DNA of 64,000 nucleotides, from assembly GCF_000759025.1 (NCBI RefSeq), contig NZ_JPOS01000084.1, positions 62,001-126,000 on the forward strand. The letters are read 5' to 3'. This DNA comes from Phaeodactylibacter xiamenensis (GTDB lineage: Bacteria > Bacteroidota > Bacteroidia > Chitinophagales > Saprospiraceae). Each line of letters begins with the position of its first letter. The first letter of the stretch is position 1. Positions 341 through 60,668 of this stretch are shown here, piece by piece. The notes below the pieces were generated by a model. It was not told the DNA's origin and did not search any database. It saw only the letters and a program-made list of their open reading frames with translations. The translations under genes and the position numbers were made by a program.

Positions 341-2833
341 CTAATCCCGTAACTTAAGCAGGGCCGCCTTTACATAACCATCCCAACCACCCATAGAAAC
401 TTTCCACCACCATTCATTTGTTTTTTCCAGCAATTTCAGCTCGGTGTATACCGGCATACGGGAAATCACTCCCGAACTGGAGTTGGGGGCTTCCCGCAGA
501 CTCGTCCGCTGTGTCAGTAGGTAAGTAGCGTAGGGTGGCTCGTAGGCGATGGGGTACCCGCTCTCTGCTCCATCAGAGGCAGTATCAGCTGCTTCTGGTC
601 CACTATCAACGGCAGGCTCCGATGCATTTGCTGGCATTTCGGGCTCAGGCGCTGTTTCCATTAGCGGTGCCTGTTCGGGCATCGGTTCGGGTGCCGGTGT
701 TTCCATCTCTTCAGGGACAAGGGTTTCGGGCGCTGATTCCCGGAGTTCAGGTTTGGGAGCGGGCGCCTCTGTTTCCACTTCAGGCATAGCCTGAGCAGGC
801 ATTTCGGGGCGCTCAGGAGTTGCCGGCGCTTCTGAGCCTGGCACATCATTTATCGCTTCTTTTTCGGCGGCAATCAGGAAAACAACCTGATTTAGGGAAG
901 ACTTCCGCTCCGGCTGGAAGTCTACAGTCAGGCTATCGTAGCCGGCAGATTTCACTACGGCCTGGTACGGAGCACGTTCGGCAGAAAGCTGCATATTCAC
1001 CCGTCCACCAAAGGCTTCTTCTGTTTGGATGAGTTTGTAGTAGCCTCCTTGTTCTATCCGGTAAACATCTACGCTTGCCGCTTCGACCAGTCCCAGGTCC
1101 TGGTTGTCCCGTAGTTCAAGCCTGAAGGGGAATAGCTTTAGCCCGTCTGCGTTAGCGGGGTGGTTCTCCGGGTAGTTGTCTTCTTCATCAGGGTAGGTGA
1201 GCAACGGTGACTGTGCGGATGGCTCAGGGTTATCGGTGGCTATAATCTCGGTTGTAGCGGGCTCAGGCTCCGCAGGTGTGGCTCCTTCTTCCGAAGCGAC
1301 TTGATTACCATTAACCGCAGAGACCTCTTCCGGTGTCTCGTCGACTATTGCCTTGGCGGGCGATTCAGATTCAGCAGCTACTGGTGCTTCAGCCGGCGGA
1401 GTGGCGGCAGGTACATGGACAGGATCAGGCATTTCTGAATCCAAACCACGGGCAGCAGCCAGTTTTAAATCTGATTGCTTGCGCCCGAACGTCAGATTGA
1501 GCCCTGCCCGGAAGTTTGCCCCGTCGAGGCGCTCCTCGTTGGTCACAGCAGACAGGTTGTCAGCAATGGCATAAACCTGAAGCGGTCCCAGTTTAAGGGC
1601 TGCATTGGCGCCCAGGCTGTTAAAAGTACCGTTTTGCATAGTGTAAACGCCGCCTACGCTGAGTATACGCCCTAAGGAGAACCGGGTGCTCAGGGACAAT
1701 GCCGTAAAGGTACCACCGGTAAAAAACTCGTTGTACAATAACCCACCGACATCCCAAAAAGGAAAAAGCTGATAATTCGCGCCCAGGTAAGTGCGGGGTG
1801 CAAGCGCCTGCGTGTAAGCGACATTTGAGGTGGCTTCAAAGGTGCCCACCGTATCAATACCAGGCACCACTTCAAAGTCTTCTCCCTCGTCCAGGTTAGC
1901 CGCATCTACGCCTTCAAAGTTGACAGTGCCGGTCAGGTTAACTTGTTGTGTGGCATTTTCCCACCGGATACTGCCCAGGTTGAGCAAGGATGCAGACAGG
2001 GTCAGCCGGTCGCCCATGAGATACTCAGCGCCCAGGTCGAATGACCAGCCAGTGTTCCCATTGGTAAATCGCCGCAGCCCGGCACCGCCTTCCGGCTCCA
2101 CGCCATCCGTGTCCAGCGCATCACCAAAGTTTTCAAATCCTTCTATGGTCTGATCGAGCAGGTTGAATTGCCCGGCACCATAGTAAAAGGCTTCATAGTC
2201 CAACTCTGCTGTAGTTTGGTAAATATCGCTGCTCTGCGTAAGGGTCAGACCGCTTCGATTGGTCACAAAACTTCCAGCACCCATCAAACGGTTGATACGC
2301 AGGCCTATAGCCAGGCGGGGGTTAACTTCATAATTTAGCCCCAATCCGATTTTCTGATACGCGATCATATCAACTGATGGACCGATATTGAGGGGCTGAT
2401 CGAGGTATTGCTCAGTCCCTTCCCATACGGTTTGCAGCAGGGCTTCCGGAAGGGTAAACTCAGCGTCCAGCACACTACTCGTGGACAGGCTGACGAATAA
2501 TTTGCCAACCCTGCCGCCTACGCCCAATCCATCAATTATAGTAGAGTTCTTCAGGACCAAATCGCGCTCCAGCTCGCCTACCACACCATCCAGGTTCAGG
2601 TAATTAGTATTTTCTGCACTGTTGTACTCGAATAACCGCTCCTGATTGATGCCAATCGCATTCAAACTGGTATGCACAGACGGCAGTGATACAATGAATT
2701 CCTGGCGGGGGAAAAAGCCGGGATTGAGATGGCTGGCATTCCAAACATCGCGCATTTGGTACAGCCCGTATTCCTGGGCAGGAAGCGCCCAACCCATCAA
2801 AAGCAGTAATGCCGTGATAATTATACGATACAT
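341..2833 (-). CDS. DUF5723-type outer-membrane barrel protein with Pro/Glu linkers and C-terminal SH3 domain
   Basis: 830 residues. A signal peptide (residues 1-19, ending PAQ) is followed by about 430 residues resembling the DUF5723 / PorV-PorQ-like Bacteroidota beta-barrels (near-N-terminal LNPGFFPRQEFIVSLPS and many alternating hydrophobic strands). Residues about 460-600 are a low-complexity Ala/Pro/Glu linker. Residues about 600-690 look like a carboxypeptidase-regulatory-type beta-sandwich. A second Pro/Glu/Met-rich linker precedes a C-terminal bacterial SH3 domain (about 765-830; TSLREAPNSSS and EWWWKVSMGGWDGYV). Barrels of this family sit in the outer membrane; the SH3 tail suggests peptidoglycan or protein binding in the periplasm (inference). 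It follows the lipoprotein gene at 2852 by 18 bp, so the two are probably co-transcribed. The linker-SH3 extension is not the usual family architecture. Confidence 0.72.
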   Translation of the reverse strand: MYRIIITALLLLMGWALPAQEYGLYQMRDVWNASHLNPGFFPRQEFIVSLPSVHTSLNAIGINQERLFEYNSAENTNYLNLDGVVGELERDLVLKNSTIIDGLGVGGRVGKLFVSLSTSSVLDAEFTLPEALLQTVWEGTEQYLDQPLNIGPSVDMIAYQKIGLGLNYEVNPRLAIGLRINRLMGAGSFVTNRSGLTLTQSSDIYQTTAELDYEAFYYGAGQFNLLDQTIEGFENFGDALDTDGVEPEGGAGLRRFTNGNTGWSFDLGAEYLMGDRLTLSASLLNLGSIRWENATQQVNLTGTVNFEGVDAANLDEGEDFEVVPGIDTVGTFEATSNVAYTQALAPRTYLGANYQLFPFWDVGGLLYNEFFTGGTFTALSLSTRFSLGRILSVGGVYTMQNGTFNSLGANAALKLGPLQVYAIADNLSAVTNEERLDGANFRAGLNLTFGRKQSDLKLAAARGLDSEMPDPVHVPAATPPAEAPVAAESESPAKAIVDETPEEVSAVNGNQVASEEGATPAEPEPATTEIIATDNPEPSAQSPLLTYPDEEDNYPENHPANADGLKLFPFRLELRDNQDLGLVEAASVDVYRIEQGGYYKLIQTEEAFGGRVNMQLSAERAPYQAVVKSAGYDSLTVDFQPERKSSLNQVVFLIAAEKEAINDVPGSEAPATPERPEMPAQAMPEVETEAPAPKPELRESAPETLVPEEMETPAPEPMPEQAPLMETAPEPEMPANASEPAVDSGPEAADTASDGAESGYPIAYEPPYATYLLTQRTSLREAPNSSSGVISRMPVYTELKLLEKTNEWWWKVSMGGWDGYVKAALLKLRD

Positions 2834-2851
2834 AACGAGGGGTTTTTGAGG

Positions 2852-4363
2852 TTAAAGCCCGGCAAGGATACCCAGCCTGATGCCAAGGATATAAGTATTC
2901 AGCATACGGGCAGCATCAGCGCCTTCATTGGGGCTTTCGAGTGTAGCAATGATCCGGGCGTCGGTGGTCCGCCTCAGGATTTGCTCCAGCTGAGTGCCGC
3001 TGAGGTCACTTTCCAGGATAGATTCTTTACTCGTGGAGACAGTGCCATCGGGGCGCAGGTTGCCACTTGCCACCAGGCGCGGGCCTTCCTGAAAAAGGGA
3101 ATCAAACACCATTCCGCTGCCGTCCATAAACTGTAACTGCATACCTAACTCAAGCGGAAAGCCATTGTCAGCCACCATTTTGAACCCGAGGCGGTCCAAA
3201 TCTTCAAGGTCAGAAAGGTCGACTTCAAAGGTGTCGACAATCCGGAAGCCCCTGGCGCGGGCGTACAGCGGGATGTCCACTTCAACATCAATACCTACCT
3301 TAACGGAATCCGTAAGGTGATTGGTAATGAGGTTGTTTTCATAAGGGTTAGCCACTGCGCTGAACGCATAATCCAGCTGATAAGGCACGCCGGATATAGC
3401 AGATACGATGTTAGAGTTTTCAGCGTCCAGACGGAGCATCGTAGGCCTGGCTTCTCCTACCTCCTCAATAGAGGGGAAGGCAAACAGCAGCCCACTGTTA
3501 AGCATGGGGTTGTCGAGCGCTACAATGCCATTGCGGTAAGTATGCAGGTCGAAAGTGTCTGACCGCAGCTCCAGAGGGATGCCCATAGTGTTGTAAAACG
3601 TCAGGCTGATAACCGGCTCCAGAAACTCGAGTTCGCCTGCTTCCCAGTTGTCCAGAAAGGCAAACTCCAGAGAATCCCCGGGCAGGCTTACATCAAATTT
3701 CCCAAAGTAACCCTGTATGTAGCTATAGTCCATCCCGCTGATGGACGTTAGAAAAGGCGGAAGGTCAACCGGGCTGTTATCGCTGATGCGGTTGGCGGTA
3801 TACGTAGTCTCAATGTCTTCATCCAGAATCAGTTCGTAGCCTGTCAAATCCAGCGTGCCAACTGTTTCCGAAGCGCCATTCATATCGGCGGGAGGAAGCG
3901 TAGCCGCCACTGACAGGCTGTTGCCGTCCAGCCGTAAATTTGAGAAAGTGAGGGTAAACGCAATTGATTCAGGGAATGGATTAAGCACAGTATAGGCAAA
4001 CTGACCGGCTTTCAATCGGATGATTTCATACCGGTAGTTGCCAGGTGCCTGGTACTCCACCGTTTGTTCTTTTTCGGCGATGGGTACAGGGATAGTTGGT
4101 AGTGGGTCTAACTCAAACTCCGGTCTCGCTTCGATACGGTCCTGGTAGACAATGGTAAGCCGGTTACCAAAATCGGTTTGGATCAGGCTACCATCATCAA
4201 GATCATCGAGCAAGTCATTGATACTGAATGAAGTATTAATAAGTGGCACCCCGAAGGCAGGGTTCCAGTTGTCAGGCTCTGCCACTTCAAATCGGTCCGG
4301 GAAACAACTGACCAGTCCAACCATCACCAGGAGGGCTAACCAGATAGAGGGTAGATTTTTCAT
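2852..4363 (-). CDS. Secreted lipoprotein of unrecognised family
   Basis: 503 residues from the ATG at 4363. This start places a signal peptide with lipobox LVSC about 20 residues in; an upstream in-frame start at 4405 would add 14 residues that spoil the signal peptide. The mature part is rich in beta-strand patterns and in Asp/Glu, with no catalytic motif I recognise. It lies immediately upstream of the DUF5723-like barrel gene with an 18-bp gap, so a joint role at the outer membrane is likely, for example as a surface or periplasmic partner of the barrel. That role is inference from context only. The length and lipobox are seen directly. Confidence 0.7.
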   Translation of the reverse strand: MKNLPSIWLALLVMVGLVSCFPDRFEVAEPDNWNPAFGVPLINTSFSINDLLDDLDDGSLIQTDFGNRLTIVYQDRIEARPEFELDPLPTIPVPIAEKEQTVEYQAPGNYRYEIIRLKAGQFAYTVLNPFPESIAFTLTFSNLRLDGNSLSVAATLPPADMNGASETVGTLDLTGYELILDEDIETTYTANRISDNSPVDLPPFLTSISGMDYSYIQGYFGKFDVSLPGDSLEFAFLDNWEAGELEFLEPVISLTFYNTMGIPLELRSDTFDLHTYRNGIVALDNPMLNSGLLFAFPSIEEVGEARPTMLRLDAENSNIVSAISGVPYQLDYAFSAVANPYENNLITNHLTDSVKVGIDVEVDIPLYARARGFRIVDTFEVDLSDLEDLDRLGFKMVADNGFPLELGMQLQFMDGSGMVFDSLFQEGPRLVASGNLRPDGTVSTSKESILESDLSGTQLEQILRRTTDARIIATLESPNEGADAARMLNTYILGIRLGILAGL

Positions 4364-4445
4364 AGTATTTTCTTTGCTTGGGTCATCTAAAGGTAATGAC
4401 CCCACCGCAAAAGTTTACGCATAAACCTGCCAAAATGTTACAGGC

Positions 4446-5612
4446 TTACCCTCTCATATACTGAAAGCCTTTTTCAAGCCCCTCCCACAGCCAGGCTGGG
4501 TCTTCCAATCCGATGTATAAACGGACCAGGTTCCAGGGCGTGGTGGAGTCCTCTCGTCCCGGCACGCCGTAGAAGGCAGTAGCTGGCATGACAAGCGACT
4601 CGTGCCCGCCCCAGGAAACCGCCAGCAGGAAACGCTCCAGGCCTTCAAAAAAGCGCTCCGCCTGACCGAAAGTATCAGCATCCAGATAAAAGGAAAACAA
4701 GCCTCCGGCTCCGGTCATCTGCCTCCGGGCCAGTTCGTACTGAGGAAATGAGGGCAGCCAGGGATGCAGGACCTTGCCTGCGGCAGGGTGGCCTTCCAGC
4801 TGACGGGCGATTTCCAAAGCACTCTCGTGGGTACGCTGCATGCGAAGCTCAAGGGTCCGCAGCCCGCGGATGACCAGGCTCGCATCGTGTGGGGAAAGAA
4901 TGCCGCCCAGGGTCATGTATTCTCCGGCGAAGACTCGCCCAATGGTTTCATAGCTGCCGCAGAGCACTCCAAATACGACATCGCTATGCCCGTTGAGGTA
5001 TTTGGTGCCGGAGTGGACGACCATATCGATATCAAAGTCGATGGGGTTTTGAAATACCGGCGAAGCATAGCTGTTGTCGATGCAGGTAGGAATGCCATGC
5101 TTTTTGGCGATAGCCGCACAAGCCTCAAGATCCTGCAGCTCGAAAGTCATGGAATTGGGGCTTTCCAGGTAAAGCAAAGTGGTATTGCTTTGAATAGCGG
5201 CTTCGATTTGCTCCGGGCCAGTGCCATCCACAAAGGTGTGGGACACTCCAAACCGGGGCAGGTAGTTCACCAGTATACTGTGGGTCCAGGAATAGGGCTT
5301 GGCTACACATACAACGTGCCCGTCTGCCTTGCAATGTGCCAGAATTGCAGCCGAAATGGCGGCCATTCCGCTGCCGAAAACCAGCGCATCCTCAGCGTGC
5401 TCCAGGGCAGCCAGCTTTTTGCGCAAAATGGCAACAGTAGGATTAACCCCTCTGGAGTAGACCGGTTGCTGAGCCTCCTGAGCGATAGCCTGCCGAAAAT
5501 CATCCAGTGAATCAAACGCGAAATTGCTGGTCTGCATGACCGGCGGAGAAACCGCGTTAAAGTAGTTGTGGCGGTCCTCGCCAAGGTGCATAAGGATTTC
5601 GCTCAGGTGCAT
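4446..5612 (-). CDS. Trans-sulfuration PLP enzyme (cystathionine synthase/lyase family)
   Basis: 388 residues, normal for the Cys/Met-metabolism PLP family (cystathionine gamma-synthase, cystathionine beta/gamma-lyase, methionine gamma-lyase). The PLP-binding lysine lies in VHSGTKYLNGHSD. Other family marks are YSRGVNPT near residue 52, the FGSGMAAISAA cofactor-phosphate loop and YLESPNS. Substrate specificity within the family cannot be read from the sequence; the short N-terminus and the YSWTHSILVN stretch do not settle it. It acts in the cytoplasm on sulfur amino acids. It lies 15 bp downstream of the PhzF-like gene on the same strand and may share its transcript. A second in-frame Met at residue 8 is an alternative start. 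Confidence 0.88.
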   Translation of the reverse strand: MHLSEILMHLGEDRHNYFNAVSPPVMQTSNFAFDSLDDFRQAIAQEAQQPVYSRGVNPTVAILRKKLAALEHAEDALVFGSGMAAISAAILAHCKADGHVVCVAKPYSWTHSILVNYLPRFGVSHTFVDGTGPEQIEAAIQSNTTLLYLESPNSMTFELQDLEACAAIAKKHGIPTCIDNSYASPVFQNPIDFDIDMVVHSGTKYLNGHSDVVFGVLCGSYETIGRVFAGEYMTLGGILSPHDASLVIRGLRTLELRMQRTHESALEIARQLEGHPAAGKVLHPWLPSFPQYELARRQMTGAGGLFSFYLDADTFGQAERFFEGLERFLLAVSWGGHESLVMPATAFYGVPGREDSTTPWNLVRLYIGLEDPAWLWEGLEKGFQYMRG

Positions 5613-5627
5613 AGCATCAGCGGTTTT

Positions 5628-6425
5628 CTAAATAAAAATTTCACCTTCCATATAGGTAACAGCCGGACCGGAAATGGCCACCCGCTCTCCCAGCATAGTA
5701 CAGCGCAGATGACCGCCTCTTTTGCTCAGCTGACGGGCAGTGAGCTCCTGCTTCGAAAGCCGTTCTGCCCAGTATGGGGTCATCGTCGTATGTGCAGAAC
5801 CGGTAACCGGGTCTTCGTCAACGCCCGCAGCCGGATAAAAACAGCGGGAAACAAAATCGGTGGTACTGCCGGGTGCCGTCACAATTACGCCCCTGCAACG
5901 GACTTCTTTCAGCAACCGCAGGTCGGGAGCAAGCTGAGCGACATCTGCTTCTGATTCGAGGACGACCAGAAAATCGTCCCGCCCCATTAGCACCTCCACG
6001 GGCTCCGTGCCCAGTGCCTCTTTGAGGGCTCGAGGGGCTACCACGGTTTCAATATTATCTGCCGGGAAGTCGAGCATGTACTCCTCCCCTTCCCTGGTCA
6101 CCGTGAGCAAGCCGCTGCGGGAACCGAAGGTGATACTTTTATGCGGGTGCCCTAAGTGGGTAAACAAACAGTGTGCGGCAGCCAGGGTCGCATGCCCGCA
6201 CAGGTCCACTTCAATAGCCGGGGTAAACCAACGCAGTTCATAGTCCGCTTCTCCTCCGGGAATGAAAAAAGCCGTTTCCGATAGATTATTCTCAGCAGCA
6301 ATAGCCTGCAGGGTAGCATCCGGCAGCCAGGAAGGCAGTGGGCAAACGGCAGCGGGGTTTCCTCTGAAACGTTGGCTGGCGAAAGCATCAATCTGATAAA
6401 TCGGAATTTTTCCTGGACCAGGCAT
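5628..6425 (-). CDS. PhzF family isomerase/epimerase-like protein
   Basis: 265 residues from the ATG at 6425, the start that begins just before the conserved IYQIDAFASQRFRGNPAAVC motif; the longer in-frame start at 6476 adds 17 poorly conserved residues. PhzF proteins are two-domain alpha/beta folds that use a Glu as acid/base. Here that residue is E50 in AAENNLSETAFF, which is intact. LCGHATLAAAH and DEDPVTGSAHTTM are the two other family signatures. The physiological substrate of most homologues outside phenazine clusters is unknown, and no phenazine genes are nearby, so only an isomerase-like role is supported. It lies between tyrS and the trans-sulfuration enzyme on the same strand. Confidence 0.88.
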   Translation of the reverse strand: MPGPGKIPIYQIDAFASQRFRGNPAAVCPLPSWLPDATLQAIAAENNLSETAFFIPGGEADYELRWFTPAIEVDLCGHATLAAAHCLFTHLGHPHKSITFGSRSGLLTVTREGEEYMLDFPADNIETVVAPRALKEALGTEPVEVLMGRDDFLVVLESEADVAQLAPDLRLLKEVRCRGVIVTAPGSTTDFVSRCFYPAAGVDEDPVTGSAHTTMTPYWAERLSKQELTARQLSKRGGHLRCTMLGERVAISGPAVTYMEGEIFI

Positions 6426-12875: not shown

Positions 12876-13383
12876 ATGAAGCGATTCAGAACTCTGATTC
12901 TACTTACCACCCTCGCCCTGCCCTTTTCCCTTTTGGCTCAGGCACAGACGATTTTTGCCGTACAGGAGTATGGTGCAAAAGGAGACGGAGCCACGGTGAA
13001 TACCCAGGCCATTCAGGCTGCCATTAACGCAGCCCACGAAGCTGGCGGCGGAAGGGTACTCATCAGCGGCGGCACCTTTTTAAGCGGGACGCTTGTCCTC
13101 AGAAGTGGCGTTGAAATCCACGTTACAGCCGGAGACACTTTACTTGGCAGCCCCTATCTGCGGGACTATCCGGATATGGAACAGCGGACCATCCGTTCCT
13201 ACACGGAACGCTACAGCCGCAAAGCGTTTATCTACGCCGAGAGCGCTACCGACATCGCCCTTACCGGACGAGGCATGATACACGGCAATAGCTATGCTCC
13301 GGAGTTCAAAGCCGCCGAGCATGACCGGGACAAGCCGCTGGGCATGCGCCTCATCTCCTGCAAGCGCGTAAAAGTGGAAGCAG
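12876..13383 (+). pseudogene. GH28 polygalacturonase-like gene, 5' third only
   Basis: About 169 residues of a pectin-lyase-fold GH28 protein: signal peptide (1-23), the AVQEYGAKGDGATVNTQAIQ start of the right-handed helix, and EAGGGRVLISGGTFLSGTL. It is cut after GMRLISCKRVKVE, before the catalytic Asp residues (NPD, DD) of the family, so it cannot be active. The sequence switches at about 13384, without a gap, into the GH78 gene in another frame; the open frame reads on to a stop at 13404-13406. It starts 9 bp after the GH2 stop. A deletion that fused two formerly separate genes is the simplest explanation. Confidence 0.85.
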
Positions 13384-14589
13384 GATACACTCGACAAGAT
13401 TCTTGAGGTTGGAGAGCGGACCATCTGCCTTTGTGCTCACGATACCTATATGGATTGCCCCTACTACGAGGAGAGTCAGTTTGGAGGCGACACCCGGGTG
13501 CAGGCATTGATCAGCTATGTGCTGTTCGGGGATGCCCGTTTGGGTAAAAACGCTATCGAGCAATTTTCCTGGTCACTCAACAGCGAGGGCTTTTTGTCAG
13601 CCCGCTACCCGACCAATTCCACCTACTACATCCCCAACTACAGCCTGTACTGGATTGGGATGCTGCACGACTATATGATGTACGCGGGCGACCAGGCATT
13701 CATCCGGCAGAAGCTGCCGGTTGCCCGCATTTTACTGGGCTACTTTTTGGACCGGCTGCGAGAGGATGGTACCGTCCGGCGGCCTGATTACCACAACTTC
13801 GTGGACTGGGCATTCCCAAGAGGCGAAGCGCCCTCTGATGACAACGGCTATGCTGCACTGGTCGACCTCCATTTATTACTTGCCTTGCAGTGGGCGATGG
13901 AGCTGGAAACTTACGCCGGCGACTTCCACTATTACAATCAGTATCAGAGCGCAGCCGAGGGCCTTATAGAAGCAATCCCGAAGTACTATTGGAACAGCAG
14001 TCGTCAACTCTATACCGACACCCCGGAGGGCATCCACTACTCTACCCATACCAACCACCTTGCTATACTCACCGGTATTGTACAAGGGGAAGCCGCCGCT
14101 CAGCTCATGCGCCGCGCCCTGACCGACACCACTCTGACACAACCCACAGTCTACTGGCAATTCTATCAGTTTGAAGCCCTACGGGCCGCCGGATTAGGGC
14201 AGGAATACCTTGATAATCTGGGCATTTGGAAAACGATGCTTCGCGCCGGGGTCACCACCTGGCCGGAAACCACCTTGCGCAGCCGCTCAGAGTGCCACGC
14301 ATGGGGGGCGAGCCCAAACTACCATTTGTACGCCATTGCTGCGGGTGTAAAGCCAGCTGCGCCCGGGTTTGAGGCCGTACGGGTCGCGCCTCAGCTGGGA
14401 GAAGACCAAACGCTACAGTGCACCCACCCCCACCCCAGGGGAAGCATCGGCCTGAAACTCACTCTTAAAGATGGAAAGCTACGTGGAACCATCGAATTAC
14501 CAGCAGGCACCACTGGCGAATTGATTACGGAAACGGGCGCCATCGAACTTACGACCGGAACCAACAGGCTAAATCTTACAAAACATTAA
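13384..14589 (+). pseudogene. GH78 alpha-L-rhamnosidase, 3' part only
   Basis: The frame from GAT at 13384 reads DTLDKILEVGERTICLCAH and then DTYMDCPYYEESQFGGDTR, the catalytic six-hairpin domain of GH78 rhamnosidases, with the acidic residues of that motif present. The C-terminal beta-sandwich is complete (SRSECHAWGASPNYHL onwards). The N-terminal beta-domains (roughly half of a normal ~900-residue enzyme) are missing, and no start codon precedes the conserved block. An internal ATG at 13450 could allow a 379-residue product, but it would cut inside the catalytic domain. Its presence implies that the island once acted on an L-rhamnose-containing glycan. Confidence 0.85.
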
Positions 14590-23885: not shown

Positions 23886-25014
23886 ATGAAACAAAGATCT
23901 CACCTATGGCTCCTGGTATTTGCAGGGCTCGTCCTGGTCGCCTGCAATCAGGAAAACTCTACCAACGCATCAGAGACGCCACCCAACATCGTTTTTATCC
24001 TCGCCGACGATTTTGGCTGGAAAGACGCTAGTTACAATGGCTCTGAATACTATGAAACGCCAAATATTGACCGGATTGCGAAGAAAGGATTCAAGTTTAC
24101 CAATGGCTATGCTACCTGTCAGGTCTGCAGCCCTTCCCGGGCCAGTATCATGACGGGGAAGTTTCCGGCACGGCATGGCATTACTGATTATATAGGAGCG
24201 TGGTCAGATACGATATGGAGGGGCGCCGGGCGTTTTACTGCTCTTTTGCCGGCCAAGTATGATCAGGCGCTAAATTCGGCAGATACGACCCTTGCAGAGG
24301 TATTGCAAACGGCAGGCTATCGTACTTTCTTCGCTGGCAAATGGCACCTGGGCAGCAAGGGTTCATGGCCGGAAGACCACGGTTTCGACATCAACAAAGG
24401 CGGCTGGGAAAAAGGCTCGCCCATCGGCGGGTACTTTTCGCCCTGGACCAATCCTAACCTTGACAACCAAAAGGATGGTGAAAATCTCTCCATACGCCTC
24501 GCAGACGAGACTGTTGCCTTCATGAGCAGCCATCATCCCGATACTACCGGGTAAGCCTTTCTTCGCTTTTCTGTCCTTTTACGCCGTCCACTCCCCTATT
24601 CAAACTACACAGGAAAGGTGGGCAAAATACCGGACAAAAGCCGAGGAGCAGGGCATCAAACCAAACGGCTATAAAACGGGCCACTTCCTGCCCATCCGGC
24701 AAGTGCAGGACAACCCCATCTACGCCGGGCTGGTGGCAACCATGGATGAAGCGGTTGGAAAAGTGCTAACAGGACTGGTGATGAAGCATCCTGAAATTGC
24801 AGAACGCCTGCACAAAGAGTTGTTTGATTACTTAAACAGCGTAGGCGCACTGTTCCCCAGAAAAGACCCGCTATACGATGCCCAAAATGAGCAAGCTTAC
24901 CTGCAAAGTATCGAAAACGAGCTCCTGCCCCGTTTGGAGGAGGAACGGCTGCAAATCCTTTCCCCGGATTTTGACGGTGGGAATTGGTGGGGAAGTCAGG
25001 TGGTAGAGGACTAG
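23886..25014 (+). pseudogene. Type I sulfatase with a frameshift and a large internal deletion
   Basis: The N-terminal part is well formed: lipobox VLVAC (Cys 20), metal-binding ADDFGW, formylglycine motif C81-S-P-S-R, and FFAGKWHLGSKG. The frame breaks at about 24551 (DTTG then stop), where a one-base shift restores KPFFAFLSFYAVHSPIQTT. This second frame runs to MDEAVGKVL at about 24770 and then passes, still in frame, into the normal C-terminal tail (KHPEIAERLHKELFDYLNS to the stop at 25014). About 200 residues between these blocks, with the second set of metal ligands, are missing. It is certainly inactive. Confidence 0.88.
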
Positions 25015-25154
25015 TTTATAGTGTTTCTTGAGATGTACAGACAAAGTCGTACCCCCCGGTTGAGCAGAAAGTACAACTATGCTGGGTTTGAGTTTTTGGA
25101 AGAACGGCAATTTGAGGATTCCCTTTGTTTCGTTTATGAATTGAAGAGGGCAGC

Positions 25155-25323
25155 CTAGTGGTCTGTCAAGTGTTAATTTATGGGTTGAGTGGGAGCGAAT
25201 TTTGAGACTAATCGAGGCGGATGTTCCCGCGCATAGCAGCGCTACGTAAGGGGTTGTCCAACGAAGAGTAGCCTCAAAAGTCGCCGCAGGCAACCCCTAG
25301 TTTTAGCCTTGACAGACCACTAG
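25155..25323. mobile_element. MITE copy 1 (161 bp plus CTAG at both ends)
   Basis: A short non-autonomous element bounded by CTAGTGGTCTGTCAAG and its exact inverse CTTGACAGACCACTAG. A second copy at 52510-52678 is the reverse complement with only three differences in 169 positions. It encodes no transposase; the open frame inside it is chance. CTAG at both ends fits a 4-bp target duplication as made by some IS5-group transposases; if only TA is duplicated, an IS630/Tc1-type source is equally possible. It lies in non-coding sequence after the broken sulfatase. The stretch 25015-25154 before it has a protein-like frame (RLSRKYNYAGFEFLEERQFE) of unknown origin. Confidence 0.88.
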
Positions 25324-50851: not shown

Positions 50852-51861
50852 TCATTCCTTTACAAACTTCCGCACCATTTGCTCCGCTCCTACTTGCAAG
50901 CGAACCACATATACGCCGCTCGGCCAGCCTCCCACATCTAATTGCCAGCTACGGGGTGCCGGGCTCAAGTTCAGGTCTTCTGTGTAAAGCATTTGACCGG
51001 ATAGGTTTTCAATAATTAGCTTACCCTCTGGATTATGTGCTATAGATTTCCGATAAACTTCCTGCCCCCGCATATTGAATACCTGAAGTAACCCGGTATG
51101 TTGTATTTGACATTCAACTCGCAAGATTGTACTGGCAGGGTTAGGGAATGCCCGGCAATAAATACCGTCGTTGTTAAGGGTAGTAGTGCTCGTTGTCCTA
51201 AGGTCAATTTCCTGGCAAGACGTATGGCTGCCTTGAGCGTTTGTAGCCGTTAAGCAGGCTTCATATAAAGCTGGAAAAACATAGCTGTGCTGTGGATGGC
51301 GGCTATTACTGACCGCTCCATCACCAAAGTTCCAATGCCAGGCATAGGGCTGAAATTTAGAGCCATCATAAAAGTCGATAGCCTGCAAGCTGCTGTCCGT
51401 AACGACATAGCTGAATTCGGCTTCCGGAAGCGGAAGGTCTATGCCCAATGTATCACAAGCACCGCCATCCTCAGGGCCAAGGCCATAATATGGGTGGTTG
51501 GGCATGGTCCTGAAGTTCAAGCCAGGCAGTTGGATGCCATGCTGTTCTATTTGGCACCCGGCCCCTTTATTATTAGGCTGATGAATGACATGGAGCCGGT
51601 CCGTAGCACCCGGCGTCGAAATGTAAATTTTGCCATCTGGTGCAAGCTGTGCTAAAAAAAACGGGTACCAAAATTAGCAGGAGATTCAAACCCATCGTAT
51701 TCTGCAACAAGAACTTTTGACCCTTCTGTATCTTCCGCTTCTAAGTCATACTGATAAATATAGCGATAAGAAGAAATGTAAAGAAAGCGGCTGTTCTCTG
51801 AGATCGCTGCCCCGGCAAAGTAGGCGGTGTCGTTGTAGTTTATTACCCTTGGATTGTACAA
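50852..51861 (-). pseudogene. T9SS-exported PKD-domain protein, 5'-truncated and frameshifted in an A8 run
   Basis: The minus strand reads YNPRVINYNDTAYFAGAAIS with NSRFLYISSYRYIYQYDLE, then at eight A (51654-51661) the frame ends in FGTRFF and a stop. One extra base gives RFFLAQLAPDGKIYIST and continuous homology to the end. The later part has a PKD domain (YAWHWNFGDGAVSNSRHPQHSYVF) and a T9SS type A sorting domain (FPNPASTILRVECQ to VRKFVKE). The signal peptide and first ~200 residues of this Saprospiria-type family are missing before 51861. The A8 slip could be a sequencing or replication error, but the 5' loss is real. Confidence 0.78.
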
Positions 51862-51966: not shown

Positions 51967-52728
51967 ATGCAAAAACACACCCCCGCCTCTTTCCAGCGGC
52001 AAACACGACCGCTCATCGCCACTCTGCTGTTCTTAGGCCTCGCTTTTCAGGGCTTCGCTCAGGACCCGGACAAAACTCAGTATGGCATCAAAGCCGGCAT
52101 CAACTTTGCCGAACTCATTGGCGATGATGCGATCCCCGAAAGCGACCGGAAAGAAGGCTATTCCATAGGGGGCTATGTGAATTTCAAACTTTCCAAATCT
52201 TTGAAATTGCAGCCGGAAGTCATTTGGTCTTTGCAGGGAGAAGAGTCCAAAAGCAATGGCCGTTTTAAATTGTCGTACATCAACATTCCGGTGATGCTGA
52301 AATGGGTGGAGGGGGACTTTTACAGTGAACTCGGCCCGCAACTGGGCATCATAACCATATCTTCAACGGAGTCTGTACCGGAATCGCTGGCCCTGGATAA
52401 TTTCGAGACCTTTGAATTGGCAGTCAATGCGGGGATAGGATACGAGGTTTTTGAAGACTGGACGATCGGCCTTCGGTATTCACAGGCTGTAACGAACCTT
52501 ATCGAAGGCCTAGTGGTCTGTCAAGGCTAAAACTAGGGGTTGCCTGCGGCGACTTTTGAGGCTACTCTTCGTTGGATAACCCCTTACGTAGCGCTGCTAT
52601 GCGCGGGAACATCCGCCTTGATTAGCCTCAAAATTCGCTCCCACTCAACCCATAAATTAACACTTGACAGACCACTAGATATCAAGGGAAGCGTTTTCTA
52701 CGTCGGGATTGCTTACCGGATCTTTTAG
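51967..52728 (+). pseudogene. Outer-membrane beta-barrel (porin family) gene split by a MITE
   Basis: Signal peptide (to about residue 36, FQGFAQ), then a PorT/OmpW-like barrel: YGIKAGINFAELIG, GYSIGGYVNFKLSKSLKLQP, YINIPVMLKW, AVNAGIGYEVF, WTIGLRYSQAVTN. At 52510 the 161-bp MITE enters; the open frame runs 6 residues into it and stops at 52530. After the element, 52679-52728 encodes DIKGSVFYVGIAYRIF and a stop. Joining across a single CTAG gives GLDIKGSVFYVG and a normal 198-residue protein. The lost part is the last beta-strand with the C-terminal Phe needed for insertion by BAM, so the present product is probably not assembled. Confidence 0.92.
52510..52678. mobile_element. MITE copy 2, inserted in a barrel gene
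   Basis: The reverse complement of the element at 25155-25323, with three mismatches in 169 positions. The ends are CTAGTGGTCTGTCAAG and CTTGACAGACCACTAG. The target gene reads GAAGGC before and ATATCAAG after; collapsing the two CTAG copies to one gives GGC-CTA-GAT, restoring the reading frame exactly. This fixes the target duplication as CTAG (or TA within it). No transposase is encoded. Confidence 0.93.
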
Positions 52729-55791: not shown

Positions 55792-56490
55792 ATGAAGAAG
55801 CAATCCACCAACCGTCAGTACAACTTTCCGGATGCAGACCTGTACCTGCAGTGCCTGGAGCGCATCAAATATGCCAACCGGGACCGGGAGCAGTTCGAGC
55901 AGTATGGCTACACGCTGCAGCGGCTAAAGCAATTCAAAGCCATGTGCGATAAATTCGGGGATTTGCCCGATGATGAGGAATTACTGGGCGATCAGATGGT
56001 CACTACCGAGAAGAAGTACGCTGCTGCGGAAAATCTTAAGTCTGCCATTCGCAGCCTAATGACGCGGGTAGCGATCAAGTACAACAACCGGAGCGGGCGT
56101 TACCGCAAATTTGGGACCGCCAAAATGGGAGACATGACCGATGCACAGCTGATCTTCTGCGGCCGGCGTGTGGTCCGCGTGGCCCGGCAGCAGCTGGACT
56201 TCCTGGCTGAGACCGGTGTGAATGAGAACGTCATCCGCCGCGTGGCAGAGGCGACCCGGCAGTTTGAGAAGTCTGTCAATATTCAGCAGGACAAGGTAGC
56301 CGACCGGGATATTTCCGTGGAGCGCCGTGTGGAAAAGGGCAATAAACTGTACGAAGAGCTGATTACCCTTTGCAATATCGGCAAGGACATCTGGGCAGAA
56401 AAGGACCCGGTGCGGTACGAGAACTACTGCATTTACGAAAGCAACAACGAGCAGAAAAAAGCCCGCAAGGCGAAGCAGGAAAATGCTTAG
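55792..56490 (+). CDS. Cytoplasmic helical protein of unknown function
   Basis: 232 residues from the ATG at 55792, chosen because the promoter -7 box ends 23 nt before it. The protein is charged and mostly helical (CLERIKYANRDREQFEQYGY, AAENLKSAIRSLMTRVAIKY, RVVRVARQQLDFLAETGV), with no signal peptide or membrane segment and a Lys-rich tail. The pattern resembles conserved Bacteroidota proteins of unknown role; possibly nucleic-acid- or protein-binding because of the basic helices, but this is a guess. It converges on the sulfurtransferase gene, overlapping it by 4 bp. Confidence 0.7.
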   Translation: MKKQSTNRQYNFPDADLYLQCLERIKYANRDREQFEQYGYTLQRLKQFKAMCDKFGDLPDDEELLGDQMVTTEKKYAAAENLKSAIRSLMTRVAIKYNNRSGRYRKFGTAKMGDMTDAQLIFCGRRVVRVARQQLDFLAETGVNENVIRRVAEATRQFEKSVNIQQDKVADRDISVERRVEKGNKLYEELITLCNIGKDIWAEKDPVRYENYCIYESNNEQKKARKAKQENA

Positions 56491-57335
56491 ACACTCCGCT
56501 CAATCGGCCGTTCAGGATCGGTAATCCAGTCGCTCCAGGACCCCGGATACAGCTTTGCATCTCCAAAGCCCGCATGATGGTGGGCCAGCAGATTGCGGCA
56601 GGCCGTAACACCGGAGCCACAGTAAAACACCATCTCATCGGCCACATCGTTGCCTACGAGGGTCTGAAAGCGTTCCTCCAACTCATCTGGTGTAAGCCAC
56701 ATCCCTTCTGAATCCACTAAATCGGTGTGAGGGAAGTTGGTCGCGCCCGGAATATGCCCGGCCACAGGGTCAATCGGCTCATCTTCGCCCCGGTAGCGCT
56801 CAGGCATTCTGGAGTCCACCAGGAGAAAATTCTCAGCGCCCAGTCTCCGCTGCACGTGGTCAGCATCCACCACCCAGCTCTCTCTCTCGCGGGGCTTAAA
56901 CACCCGTGGTCCAGCACCCATAATAGCTGTTTCTACCGGATAGCCTTCTGCTTCCCATGCCCGCCATCCGCCATCGAGCACGGCCACGCGATCGTGCCCC
57001 AGGTACCGGAGCATCCACCACAGCCTTGCGGCAATAGCACCAGACCGGTCATCGTACAATACGACCTGAATGCCATCGCTGATGCCCCAGCTGGAGAAGC
57101 GCTGCGTCATTTTTACGATTGAAGGCAGGGGGTGACGCCCCGTTTTTCCAGGTACAACCTTGCCAGACAAGTCTCTGTCGAGATGTGCATAACTCGCACC
57201 GGGGATGTGGCTCTTTTTGTAAGCCTCCTCCCCGGCATCCGGATGGCCAAGGCTGTAACGGCAGTCAATAATTACCCAGGTTTGGCGGCCCAGCTTTTCG
57301 TGCAATTCTTGTGGACTAATGATGGTGCGGAACAT
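56487..57335 (-). CDS. sseA: 3-mercaptopyruvate sulfurtransferase (tandem rhodanese domains)
   Basis: 282 residues with two rhodanese domains. The inactive N-terminal domain contains VIIDCRYSLGHPDAGEEAYKKSHIPGA; the C-terminal one has LLVDSRMPERYRGEDEPIDP and the active loop CGSGVTAC. CGSGVTA is the loop of mercaptopyruvate sulfurtransferases, whereas thiosulfate sulfurtransferases have CRxGxR/T. It moves sulfur from 3-mercaptopyruvate to a thiol acceptor in the cytoplasm. Complete, start ATG 57335. Convergent with the gene of unknown function before it. Confidence 0.92.
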   Translation of the reverse strand: MFRTIISPQELHEKLGRQTWVIIDCRYSLGHPDAGEEAYKKSHIPGASYAHLDRDLSGKVVPGKTGRHPLPSIVKMTQRFSSWGISDGIQVVLYDDRSGAIAARLWWMLRYLGHDRVAVLDGGWRAWEAEGYPVETAIMGAGPRVFKPRERESWVVDADHVQRRLGAENFLLVDSRMPERYRGEDEPIDPVAGHIPGATNFPHTDLVDSEGMWLTPDELEERFQTLVGNDVADEMVFYCGSGVTACRNLLAHHHAGFGDAKLYPGSWSDWITDPERPIERSV

Positions 57336-57480
57336 GATTTTCAGGTTTTCTGATGGCGAATATAATCCTTAGAACCCGGTTTGTGAACCCAATTGAATTA
57401 TTTTAAAGTTCTGTTGGCACCTGTAGCTTTTTTATGTATATGTTCCTATTTTGAATTCCTGAAAAAACAATTCCTGGAAT

Positions 57481-57837
57481 ATGCACAATTTCGAAGCCCC
57501 AGACCTTCATCAATGGCTGGACGGGCAGCGTACTGCTAATTTTGATCACCTCCCCTACGGTGTTGTCCAAATGGATCATTCCGATACCGTCCTGGCCTAT
57601 AACGCCACCGAATCTTCCTATACTGGTGTCGACCCTCAGCAAGCGATTGGCAAACATTTCTTTACAGAAATCGCCCCCTGTACCAATAATTTTCTGGTTG
57701 CAGGAAAGTATAATGAGGCGGCACTTGATGAAATTATCGATTACATTTTCACATACGTTCTAAAGCCCACGCCCGTAAGGCTCAGAATGCTTAAAGGAGA
57801 AAGCCCAAACATGTACCTCGTGGTTCAAAAACGTTAG
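57481..57837 (+). CDS. pyp: Photoactive yellow protein (blue-light PAS photoreceptor)
   Basis: 118 residues, against 125 in Halorhodospira halophila PYP, and colinear with it. PYP carries p-coumaric acid on a Cys thioester and signals blue light by chromophore isomerisation. The chromophore pocket is kept: C67 (FTEIAPCTNN; Cys69 in the reference), Y40 (LAYNATE; Tyr42), E44 (Glu46) and T48 (Thr50). The family core LPYGVVQMD, GVDPQQAIGKHFF and the terminal KPTPVRL / YLVVQKR are present. R52 is replaced by V50, and M100, which speeds dark recovery, by Leu. It is followed 5 bp later by a histidine-kinase gene and then a coumaroyl-CoA-ligase-like gene, both broken. I am confident of the family; whether chromophore is made here is unknown. 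Confidence 0.88.
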   Translation: MHNFEAPDLHQWLDGQRTANFDHLPYGVVQMDHSDTVLAYNATESSYTGVDPQQAIGKHFFTEIAPCTNNFLVAGKYNEAALDEIIDYIFTYVLKPTPVRLRMLKGESPNMYLVVQKR

Positions 57838-57842
57838 TCATT

Positions 57843-58788
57843 ATGGATATCCAGGCCCAAACCCAGCAAACGCTTTCCGTCATCTACCAGATTCCGGTAG
57901 GTATAGTGCAAACGGATGACTAAGGCACCGTGCAGGAAATGAACGCGATGGCCATACAGTACCTCATGCCTCACTTTATCGCCAACCAACTGACCGGAGA
58001 GAACTTGTTTGACCTGCTATCCGTCGCCTTTCCCAACGCGCTTGAAGCCTTGAAAAGCTACCAAAAGCCTTCCGGCAACATCCTTCAGCAGGAACGCTTT
58101 AGCGTCAACCACAACATCCAAAACCCAGCCACGGAACAGCACCTGATTCTAACCATCAACCGCCTGGACGAAAAATCCTATCTGTTCATTTTGGATGACC
58201 TGACGGAACTTTACAAAAAAGAACAACAGCTGTTTGCCATTCAACAAGAGCAGGCCGTGGAACGTGGCAAGTTTGAAGTCATCTCTGGTGTGCTCCACGA
58301 TATTGGGAATGCAGTCGTAGGATTTGGTTCCTACCTGACCAAAGTCAAACAACTGTCCAAGGGCAATGACGCTACCATGCTGAGCAAGCTTGCCCAGTTC
58401 GTAAAAGCCAACGAGGCTGCAATCGGTCAGGCTATTGGGGTACCCAAGGCACAGGCTATGGTACAGCTGATCGATGGGCTCAAGGCCAAACAGGAAGACC
58501 ATATGGTCAAGATGGAAAAAGCCATTACTGATCAAATGAATATTGTCACCCACGTAAAAGATGTGCTCAATATTCAGCGGCAGTACATCGGTTCAGAATC
58601 CGGAGAACGCTCCCTCGTCAGCCTCAGGGGTATCATCAACGATGCCCTGGCCATGCAACTGGCTACCCTGGAAAAGCGAAATATAGCAATAAGGTGGATT
58701 CGCCTGTCATAAAAGTGCGCCTGTCGGAATCAGCAAAGTTCGTTCAGATCGTTGTTTCTGATAATGGCCCAGCAATCAGCCCAGATCA
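57843..58788 (+). pseudogene. PAS/histidine kinase partner of PYP, broken by a stop, a frameshift and a 3' deletion
   Basis: Starts 5 bp after pyp with MDIQAQTQQTLSVIYQIPVG; an in-frame TAA at 57921 interrupts the PAS-like start (VQTDD then GTVQEMNAMAIQYL). The frame continues through a PAS domain and the phosphoacceptor helix GVLHDIGNAVVGFGSYLTK, with His in HDxxN. At about 58690 it shifts frame: the main frame ends WIRLS, while the +1 frame goes on VDSPVIKVRLSESAKFVQIV and SDNGPAISPDHL, the ATPase D-x-G box. At about 58788 it is cut and joined to ligase sequence. The G boxes that bind ATP are absent. A GTG at 57930 could restart a shorter product. Confidence 0.82.
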
Positions 58789-59360
58789 CCTTCTTTACCT
58801 CTGGCACCACTGACGAAGCCCGAACGGTGACGCATCAGCAGGCTTTTGCAGACCGGGAGGTCAACTTTCTGCGCGAACACTTTGGCAATCTTTCCTGCAT
58901 CATCCCTCTCGTGCCTGCTGCCAGTATCTACGGGTACCTCTACACCATAGCACTTCCACAGGCTGCGGGAGCCCCGGTCTGCTTCCCCTCAGAAGTCCAA
59001 TGGAATCAGCTTTCCGAAAATGCACTGATCGTTGGCACGCCCTTTACCTGGTCACACCTGATGCGCTCTATGCCCGGCCTGAATATCCGGTCCAAAGGCG
59101 TCTGTTCCACCGCTCCACTACCGAACCCGCTGTACGCATCCCTGCTTAGCCGTGGGCTTTCCCTCACGGAGGTCTACGGCGCTACCGAAACCGGAGGCGT
59201 TGGGTTGAGGAAAGCTCCAAATACCGCGTTTGAACTCTTCCCTTACTGGACCTTTCAGGACGCAGCTACCCTTATCGATTCCGATACCGGCCATACCTTT
59301 TCTCTTATGGACAAGATCTCAACCGCTGAACGCCCGGCTGAAATTCACTTTTGTTCTTAA
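58785..59360 (+). pseudogene. p-coumaroyl-CoA ligase-like (AMP-binding) enzyme fragment
   Basis: The middle of an adenylate-forming enzyme: the ATP-phosphate loop ITFFTSGTTDEARTVTH at the very start, FGNLSCIIPLVPAASIYGYL, LIVGTPFTWSHLM, and the A5 motif LTEVYGATETGGVGLR. The region before the P-loop and the C-terminal domain (after about 59350) are missing, so it cannot work. PYP operons carry such a ligase (pCL) to activate p-coumarate before attachment to the Cys; the short, divergent P-loop and the position after pyp and its kinase support that assignment over a general acyl-CoA ligase. It starts at the deletion joint with the kinase. Confidence 0.72.
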
Positions 59361-59410
59361 TTTTTCCTTAATCCACCACCCTTTGCTCAATTTGGTCCTG
59401 CCTAAACCGT

Positions 59411-59418
59411 TACTTTTG
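59411..59418 (+). promoter_or_regulatory. -7 box of the secreted-protein gene
   Basis: TACTTTTG fits TAnnTTTG and ends 27 nt before the ATG at 59446. A TTTGG about 16 bp upstream could serve as the -33 element, though the spacing is short. Confidence 0.4.
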
Positions 59419-59445
59419 CAGATGACCGAAAAAATTGAAATACCT

Positions 59446-60069
59446 ATGCTACGGACCGCGATTCTTTTCAGTATGTGCTGCTTTGTTTTTACTGCTTCCG
59501 CCCAGAAGGGAGAACGATATACGGCTGACTTTATCTTTGAGCGGGGCATCTACCCTACCCTTGCCGACTGGAAAGCCCAAATCCCGGTAAAACCGGAAGA
59601 AATCATCGTGGACATCGACCCGCAAAACCGAAAGTTCTTCCAGTATCTCTTTGCTAAGGACCAGTTCCGCTACCCCCGGAATAATGAAATCATTTACCTG
59701 AAACCGGAGGATATTTTTGGCTACAGCCCCGATGGGCAGTCCATGTACTACAGCACAAATTACCGCTTCGACATCATTGGCGCCATCTGCCTGCTACAGG
59801 AAGTTGACCAGGTAGACCGCTATTCCTCATTTATCAATCCCGGTGACGAGTATAAGGCCGCCCGAAAGGAAGGGACCGGCAAGCTCTATGTACTGGATTT
59901 TGAAAGCGGTGATTTTTTCCGCTGCCGTCCCGGCAAGGTGGAAAAAATCTTCAAACAAGACGCAGAGCTGTACCAAAACTACAAGTCGGCTAAGGGGAAA
60001 CGCAAAGAAAAAATCAAAGCCTTTATCAAGGAGTACAACTTCCGCCACCCAGTATACTTTGGCGAGTAA
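59446..60069 (+). CDS. Secreted protein of unknown function
   Basis: 207 residues from the ATG at 59446, which follows the -7 box by 27 nt and begins a good signal peptide (1-19, ending ASAQ). Earlier in-frame Met codons at 59230 and 59422 lie in or before the ligase remnant and promoter. The mature protein is mixed charged and aromatic (YTADFIFERGIYPTLADWK, KFFQYLFAKDQFRYPRNNEI, YSPDGQSMYYSTNYRFD) and ends with a Lys-rich helix. No family recognised. It is intact, unlike the genes on either side. Confidence 0.7.
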   Translation: MLRTAILFSMCCFVFTASAQKGERYTADFIFERGIYPTLADWKAQIPVKPEEIIVDIDPQNRKFFQYLFAKDQFRYPRNNEIIYLKPEDIFGYSPDGQSMYYSTNYRFDIIGAICLLQEVDQVDRYSSFINPGDEYKAARKEGTGKLYVLDFESGDFFRCRPGKVEKIFKQDAELYQNYKSAKGKRKEKIKAFIKEYNFRHPVYFGE

Positions 60070-60168: not shown

Positions 60169-60668
60169 ATGAAAATGGAAAACTCCCAAAATTCTACTAT
60201 TGAACGGCTGCGAGCTGCCGGATTATTCACCAAAGGTGTGGTATATAGACTGGTAGGTATGCTTACCGCTATGTTCGCCATTGGCATGGGTGGGGACATT
60301 AAGGGTGTTTCCGGCATTGCCGAGTTCTTCCCAAACAACCCGTTGGGTTTGTCTTGCTGGGCCTGACAGCGCTTGGCCTGGCCGCCTATGCCCTTTGGAG
60401 GCTTTATGAAACCTTCTCTAATTCAGACGCAATCTTTCAGGAAGATGAAAAGAAGACCGGCAAACGCCTTCGGCACTTCTATTCCGCAGTCGTATACGGC
60501 CTGCTGGCTTACACCTTTGCCAAACCCCTTTTCGGCGGCAGTTCCGGATCAGGCGGGGACTCCAAACAGGATGCGCTGGGCATGCTGCTTCAACAGTCAC
60601 CTCGACCGTCAAAAATGCGATACGCAGAAAAGGGATCAAAACCGAATAGCACCACCTGTAAAGCGTAA
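60169..60668 (+). pseudogene. DUF1206 membrane protein, frameshifted and 3'-truncated
   Basis: Frame one reads IERLRAAGLFTKGVVYRLVG with MLTAMFAIGMGG, the first membrane hairpin of DUF1206, and breaks at about 60350 (NNPLG then SCWA and stop). A one-base shift gives FVLLGLTALGLAAYALWRLY with ETFSNSD, the next segment. After DALGMLLQQSP (about 60600) the family would continue with its later membrane helices, but the sequence becomes basic and stops at 60668. The family function is unknown. Two independent lesions make this a clear pseudogene. Confidence 0.72.

Follow-up and report, generated by a model that had tools for sequence, protein, structure and literature searches.

A photoactive yellow protein gene probably orphaned by recent decay of its operon in Phaeodactylibacter xiamenensis

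A stretch of 64,000 nucleotides from Phaeodactylibacter xiamenensis (hereafter the window; contig NZ_JPOS01000084.1, positions 62,001 to 126,000) carries an intact gene for a photoactive yellow protein (PYP) followed by the debris of its partner genes. We propose, with a probability that we put at roughly 78%, that a once complete PYP operon was broken here in recent times and that its PYP has been orphaned, is apo or unused, and is on its way out. The window locus itself is a case of ordinary decay, while the intact system, which we found in a sister genome of the same genus, is an unusual variant.

Results

The window retains pyp and has lost its partners

The pyp gene (57481..57837, + strand) is an open frame of 118 aa. 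Its top family was TIGR02373 photo_yellow (E 2.9e-27, 95.2 bits) and the top structures in a search of the PDB were PYPs, from E 3e-21. General PAS models gave weak scores (Pfam PAS 23.4 bits, PAS_4 23.9 bits), far behind the PYP profile, and on these grounds we rejected the possibility that the protein is an ordinary PAS domain. Neither this PYP nor that of the sister locus L008 (101.8 bits) reached the curated TIGR02373 cut-off of 143.05 bits, which is an NCBI annotation threshold and not a definition of the family; we read the two as a divergent branch of the family. The alignment showed that Cys67, Tyr40, Glu44, Thr48 and Pro66 of the pocket are all kept, at the positions of Cys69, Tyr42, Glu46, Thr50 and Pro68 of Halorhodospira halophila PYP, whose roles are described in section 5 of PMC12826048. 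The chromophore residues Cys, Tyr and Glu are also found in 13/13 PYPs aligned from loci L009-L020. The initial annotation had called the gene a genuine PYP with C67, Y40, E44 and T48 in place, and family, structure and alignment all bear this out. At the highly conserved position equivalent to Gly37, the window PYP carries Asp35; the sister L008 and 15/16 other PYPs counted (L021 left out) have a glycine there.

Downstream, the start codon of a PAS/HDIGN histidine kinase gene lies at 57843, 5 bp after the pyp stop codon as had been noted, but the gene (57843..58684, +) is a remnant. Its codon 27 is TAA (57921-57923) where L008 has a sense codon, and 5/6 bases of codons 26-27 differ from L008. 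Window and L008 DNA are 90.9% identical up to 58684, beyond which three deletions follow: L008 positions 2953-4665 (~1713 bp) are gone at window 58684/58685, ~442 bp at 58770 and ~243 bp at 59317/59318. Read by eye, the junctions showed no exact repeats beyond ~1 base, which gives no support to such repeats as the origin of the deletions. The deletions took the ATPase domain of the kinase, leaving ~280 of 408 codons, and no single open frame of this second gene combines PAS, H-box and HATPase. They also took nearly all of a receiver-histidine kinase gene encoding 526 aa in L008, reduced here to a stub of 86 bp (58685..58770, +), and half of the PYP-type coumarate ligase gene. The ligase remnant (58770..59360, +) lacks codons 1-88 and ~272-352 of the L008 gene; the remainder is an open frame, with TIGR02372 as top family (E 1.3e-34). 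Both genes seen behind pyp in the initial annotation are thus broken as it had stated, the kinase by the stop codon and deletions and the ligase by loss of half its length; the almost fully deleted third partner, the receiver-histidine kinase, had escaped it.

The operon remains are bordered on the left by a gene that we take to be rhodanese-type sulfurtransferase-like (56487..57335, -) and on the right by a gene of no assigned family (59368..60069, +), with the same neighbours in L008 and in the related genomes G681 and G645. In the region upstream of pyp (57336..57480, +), the first ~70 bp are strongly conserved in both sisters and the pyp-proximal part less so.

Other genes of the window are also damaged. 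The gene at 60169-60668, presumably DUF1206-like, is broken by a 1-bp deletion and a ~580 bp deletion relative to L008, and is absent from the aligned stretch of G681. Short or split frames at 23886-24554, 12876-13406 and 50852-51861 (by eye sulfatase-like, pectate-lyase-like and T9SS-type) suggest that gene decay in this genome is more widespread. The frames at 24871-25293 (-) and 52540-52728 (+) have a nearly identical segment in common, which is probably a dispersed repeat.

A sister genome keeps the complete operon and a second has almost none of it left

A pattern scan of 84,980 species genomes returned 14 loci. Locus L008, which is the same as G680:C325 and comes from the genus of the window, contains four contiguous genes, all intact: pyp (1749-2105), a PAS/HDIGN histidine kinase of 408 aa (2111-3337), a receiver-histidine kinase of 526 aa (3349-4929) and a ligase of 365 aa (4929-6026), separated by gaps of 5 bp and 11 bp and joined at the end by a 1-bp overlap. 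The L008 PYP is 92% identical to that of the window. In the first kinase, Pfam recognised HATPase_c (E 2e-20) and PAS only below cut-off (E 0.0012), and the H-box was read by eye as HDIGN. The second kinase has Pfam receiver, HisKA and HATPase domains; the stretch between receiver and HisKA, which we take to be GAF-like, matched DUF3369 weakly (E 0.01). The top family of the ligase was TIGR02372 (E 1.8e-57, 194.8 bits). The suggestion that kinase and ligase are the natural partners of this PYP is supported by a sister that has them intact behind pyp, and alignment of the locus showed that relatives keep both the chromophore Cys and the ligase neighbour.

G681 (61% complete), a second sister, has lost nearly all of the operon: its deletion begins early in pyp and runs through the ligase, with only the first pyp codons, interrupted by in-frame stops, and the last ligase bases left; the breakpoints differ from those of the window. 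The identities of G681 to L008 and to the window are, respectively, 91.5% and 92.7% in the left flank, 88.9% and 91.7% in the right-flank gene, and 87.5% and 82.8% in the DNA farther right. Just upstream of pyp, the window differs from G681 by 6.2% and from L008 by 7.9%, which suggests that of these two G681 is somewhat the closer to the window. The flanking genes of G645 adjoin, 88 bp apart, and no PYP, kinase or ligase match was found in its 17-kb stretch. In the G679 stretch the left-flank gene and a kinase-like match were present, but PYP, ligase and right-flank gene were not found; the left-flank gene had no match in G682 (83% complete). A full ligase was present only in G680 among the 6 genomes of the genus. 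Since PYP occurs in only 2/398 genomes and 1/112 genera of the GTDB family, it was probably gained from outside the family, and outside gain followed by loss is the simplest reading of this distribution.

PYP loci in other Bacteroidota point to a PAS partner

We compared the genus with 12 further Bacteroidota loci (L009-L020) from Spirosoma, Fibrella, Rudanella, an unclassified Cytophagales MAG and one record that is labelled Flavobacterium but falls within Spirosoma; L006 and L007, identical to L010 and L018, were counted once, and L021 (Planctomycetaceae) was left out of the Bacteroidota counts. A ligase lies behind pyp at all of them (12/12, although the L014 copy is split in frame and truncated where the contig ends). 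At 10/12 (not L009 and L010) the gene immediately ahead of pyp on the same strand encodes a histidine kinase, and at 7/12 a lone PAS protein is encoded in the interval from pyp to ligase. This lone protein has 25-31% identity to its homologous counterpart, the N-terminus of the L008 kinase, and that segment of the kinase models as a PAS fold (pLDDT 86), with PAS and PYP structures among its best matches (best E 5.7e-4). Because the PAS element occurs as a free-standing protein in one clade and as part of a kinase in another, we infer that it is the best candidate for what PYP touches. A PYP-kinase-ligase arrangement in a Saprospiria-like organism had been described in the initial annotation as little known. 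It is not confined to this organism, however, given the intact L008 operon and the 12 Spirosomaceae-type loci, and PYPs of Bacteroidota are in print (PMC12826048, section 4), including a Spirosoma PYP in a table of PMC6273459.

In trees, the window and L008 PYPs branched from an open fork near the Spirosomaceae-type PYPs and the L008 ligase was long-branched, so that the placing of both is unsure. The pyp locus of L019 (record Flavobacterium sp. SUN052) paired with Spirosoma sordidisoli in both trees and is either mislabelled or transferred. Two pyp genes stand in tandem in Fibrella forsythiae (L012:9565-10363), and a Caballeronia plasmid (L028:7995-12424) has two pyp genes as well, one by a diguanylate cyclase and an EAL gene, the other by a ligase. 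L021 encodes a PYP; in its stretch, which extends only ~200 bases behind pyp, tblastn detected neither ligase nor kinase. Sampling by taxonomic rank was sparse in hits: the ligase profile at E <= 1e-30 gave no new loci in the phylum sample (2/395 genomes, the window genome and G351), and the window PYP at E <= 1e-8 found 3/395 genomes of the class sample (the window genome and two Spirosomaceae-type genomes) and 1/298 of the order sample, the window genome itself. Plasmid PYPs (13 records) all stayed below 60% identity.

Four of the 12 loci (L015-L018) carry a bacteriophytochrome and a response regulator immediately ahead of the kinase in the same orientation, in L017 with a heme oxygenase gene between. 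These same-strand phytochrome-pyp-ligase arrays span L015:4075-11496, L016:4846-11873, L017:866-7260 and L018:4075-11457. Their spacing is tight, and each is a predicted operon. The phytochromes have the domain order PAS_2-GAF-PHY-HisKA-HATPase, that of L016 only from GAF on in one frame; in L016 and L018 the response regulator was identified by similarity. According to section 8 of PMC12826048, not a single phytochrome-encoding pyp operon was observed in that 2025 survey.

The genomes with pyp and ligase mostly lack a recognisable aromatic lyase. No PF00221 protein was found in 10/13 of them (L008-L020; some are MAGs, so absence is not proof). A HutH-type protein was present in 2/13, namely in the L008 genome and in Rudanella, where it is partial and passes one of two HutH cut-offs, and a tyrosine ammonia-lyase (TAL) of FlxA type in 1/13, Spirosoma sordidisoli (L011/L032); in the other 12/13, MAGs among them, no TAL was recognised. 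For comparison, of the 113 pyp operons treated in section 8 of PMC12826048, 7 instances have TAL and 42 have pCL, and uptake of p-coumarate is put forward there as one possibility.

The Bacteroidota ligases have an unusual architecture

TIGR02372 was also the top family for the ligases of L011 (219.6 bits) and L015 (202.1 bits), which like that of L008 (194.8 bits) stayed under the cut-off of 334.7 bits. This cut-off is passed by the Indioceanicola ligase (343.2) and failed by those of Caballeronia (290.8) and Methylobacterium (294.3), the three Pseudomonadota copies scored. All full-length Bacteroidota ligases (12/12, the incomplete L014 copy left out) stop just before the A10 motif with its catalytic lysine, which is present in 4/4 Pseudomonadota copies (Indioceanicola, Caballeronia, Niveispirillum and Methylobacterium, the last with SK for GK). 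Correspondingly, matches to the 386-position TIGR02372 profile end at 372 in two Spirosoma copies and at 373 in L008, compared to 385 in three Pseudomonadota copies. The name ligase is thus given to the Bacteroidota proteins by kinship, and their activity is putative.

At the other end, the N-terminal 90 residues matched the PF00550 phosphopantetheine-attachment domain at E <= 0.001 in 12/15 ligases (13/15 with the limit relaxed to E 10). L008 and Indioceanicola gave no match and Caballeronia was under the cut-off (E 0.009); the Methylobacterium ligase, scanned apart from the 15, gave no PF00550 match either. Searched against the PDB, a profile built from the 15 N-terminal domains hit acyl carrier proteins (best E 2.6e-5). 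The attachment Ser45 is invariant (15/15), preceded by D in most copies and by N or E in four. In the model of the L008 ligase, helices span residues 5-20, 45-59 and 76-89, so that by eye Ser45 starts the second long helix, which fits a carrier fold, and the rest of the protein takes an ANL ligase fold in the model (pLDDT 87; E 4.3e-17 for the best PDB match). A predicted carrier domain is therefore well supported in the Spirosomaceae-type ligases; alignment and model suggest one in L008, and the alignment suggests a similar domain in the Pseudomonadota ligases.

Is the window PYP still used?

The initial annotation had asked whether the intact PYP works with another kinase and ligase or is itself about to decay. 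The single PF00221 lyase of the window genome scored 614 bits with HutH against a cut-off of 524, and 295 against 700 with the TAL model FlxA; as this sole family member passes the HutH and not the TAL models, no TAL was found in the genome. Nor did the genome contain a PYP-type ligase other than the remnant, or any PHY-domain match. Because no other such ligase, TAL or phytochrome was found, the PYP has most likely been orphaned, and recently, and the answer to the question is mostly decay, all the more as a sister has deleted the operon.

Substitution rates date the loss without settling the state of pyp. Relative to L008, omega (dN/dS) was 0.055 for pyp, 0.065 for the 5' part of the broken kinase and 0.114 for the ligase remnant. 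Since the broken kinase gave nearly the same value as pyp, the loss is recent and dN/dS is not decisive for pyp; we thus rejected it as proof of ongoing selection on PYP. In the PYP tree the window branch was longer than that of L008 (0.080 vs 0.024), a difference resting on 10 amino-acid differences. As a control, three flanking genes polarised by G681 gave 12 window-derived and 17 L008-derived changes, hence no excess for the window, with 2 more that could not be assigned; this control underestimates the window-derived changes if L008 is the more distant of the two sisters from the window. We take the longer branch as a weak sign that constraint on the window PYP may be relaxed.

Continued use of the PYP, with scavenged p-coumarate, a general acyl-CoA ligase encoded elsewhere and another PAS kinase, would account for the intact frame and pocket. 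The genome offers 34 PF00989 PAS matches and other AMP-ligases, with four further weak TIGR02372 matches, and the lack of any aromatic lyase in most pyp and ligase genomes means that external p-coumarate may be normal here. We nevertheless hold continued use to be unlikely, given that neither a second PYP-type ligase nor a TAL was found, that G681 deleted the operon and that the PYP of the window, on its longer branch, no longer has the conserved Gly37. A new role as a light-independent PAS protein might explain why the frame outlived the chromophore ligase, yet the chromophore-pocket residues are kept and no link to a new partner was seen here, which leaves such a role scarcely credible. The damage itself could in principle be an artefact of a draft assembly of 164 contigs, all the more as three sizeable deletions fall within 1 kb. 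A single base-calling error would not change 5/6 bases at kinase codons 26-27, however, and the deletions have clean ends after which the alignment resumes in the right order. G681 moreover lost the same operon with other breakpoints, and the genes adjoining both sides are open, though the gene at 60169-60668 is broken too. We consider an artefact very improbable, and retain recent decay of a complete operon as the explanation of the window locus.

Discussion

In its intact form, the operon would work as follows. The ligase would thioesterify p-coumarate, taken up or synthesised by some route, and pass it to the PYP cysteine (Cys67 in the window), perhaps via its own carrier arm. Blue light would isomerise the chromophore, and PYP would then act on the PAS domain of the kinase, or on the lone PAS protein in 7/12 Spirosomaceae-type loci, with phosphotransfer onward to the receiver domain of the second kinase. 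We infer this direction of signalling, from PYP through PAS to the kinases, from gene order and gene fusion. In the window, where deletions remove the kinase output and the ligase, PYP most likely lacks both chromophore and partner when it is made, or is unused; the endpoint would resemble G681, where only the first pyp codons survive.

The operon can be set against known systems. Like the Halorhodospira halophila-type pyp-pCL-TAL operon (PMC12826048), it has pyp followed by a TIGR02372-type ligase and the same chromophore residues, but it has no TAL, its ligase lacks the A10 lysine end, and in L008 two kinase genes stand between pyp and ligase. The Spirosomaceae-type loci resemble it in having pyp and ligase (12/12), a kinase, there upstream of pyp (10/12), and a PAS protein homologous to the PAS domain of the L008 kinase (7/12). 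Their PAS protein is lone and their kinase precedes pyp, whereas L008 and the window have PAS and kinase joined in one gene downstream of pyp, with a further receiver-kinase in L008. Ppr of Rhodospirillum centenum, a PYP-phytochrome-kinase fusion, likewise couples PYP to a histidine kinase, but in the window and L008 the single PYP domain has a gene to itself, and the phytochromes of L015-L018 are likewise encoded apart from PYP, within one array.

The combination of no recognisable TAL, a lost A10 lysine and a retained N-terminal phosphopantetheine carrier raises the idea that Bacteroidota have a second kind of PYP maturation, in which PYP would be loaded from a preformed activated (or different) acid via a carrier thioester and not from free p-coumaroyl-CoA, and that in some species the genes, arrayed with those for a bacteriophytochrome, a response regulator and, in L017, a heme oxygenase, form a blue-plus-red sensory operon. 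We offer this as a tentative reading and regard it as rather doubtful. A ligase and kinase neighbourhood of pyp is known in general (PMC9664959, section 7; PMC12826048, section 8). In the open literature on PYP, as covered by titles, the beginnings of abstracts and passages of PMC3992019 and PMC6273459, we found no description of the carrier domain, the missing A10 end, the PAS partner or the decay series.

Signal transmission by PYP is called an open question in the abstract of PMC12826048. The Bacteroidota operons name candidate partners, namely the PAS protein, lone or fused to a kinase as in the genus of the window, and the kinase directly upstream. The genus of the window holds intact, half-deleted and nearly erased copies of one operon, in genomes whose DNA upstream of pyp is ~6-8% apart, which makes the window and its sisters useful for tracing in what sequence the parts of a light-sensing system disappear.
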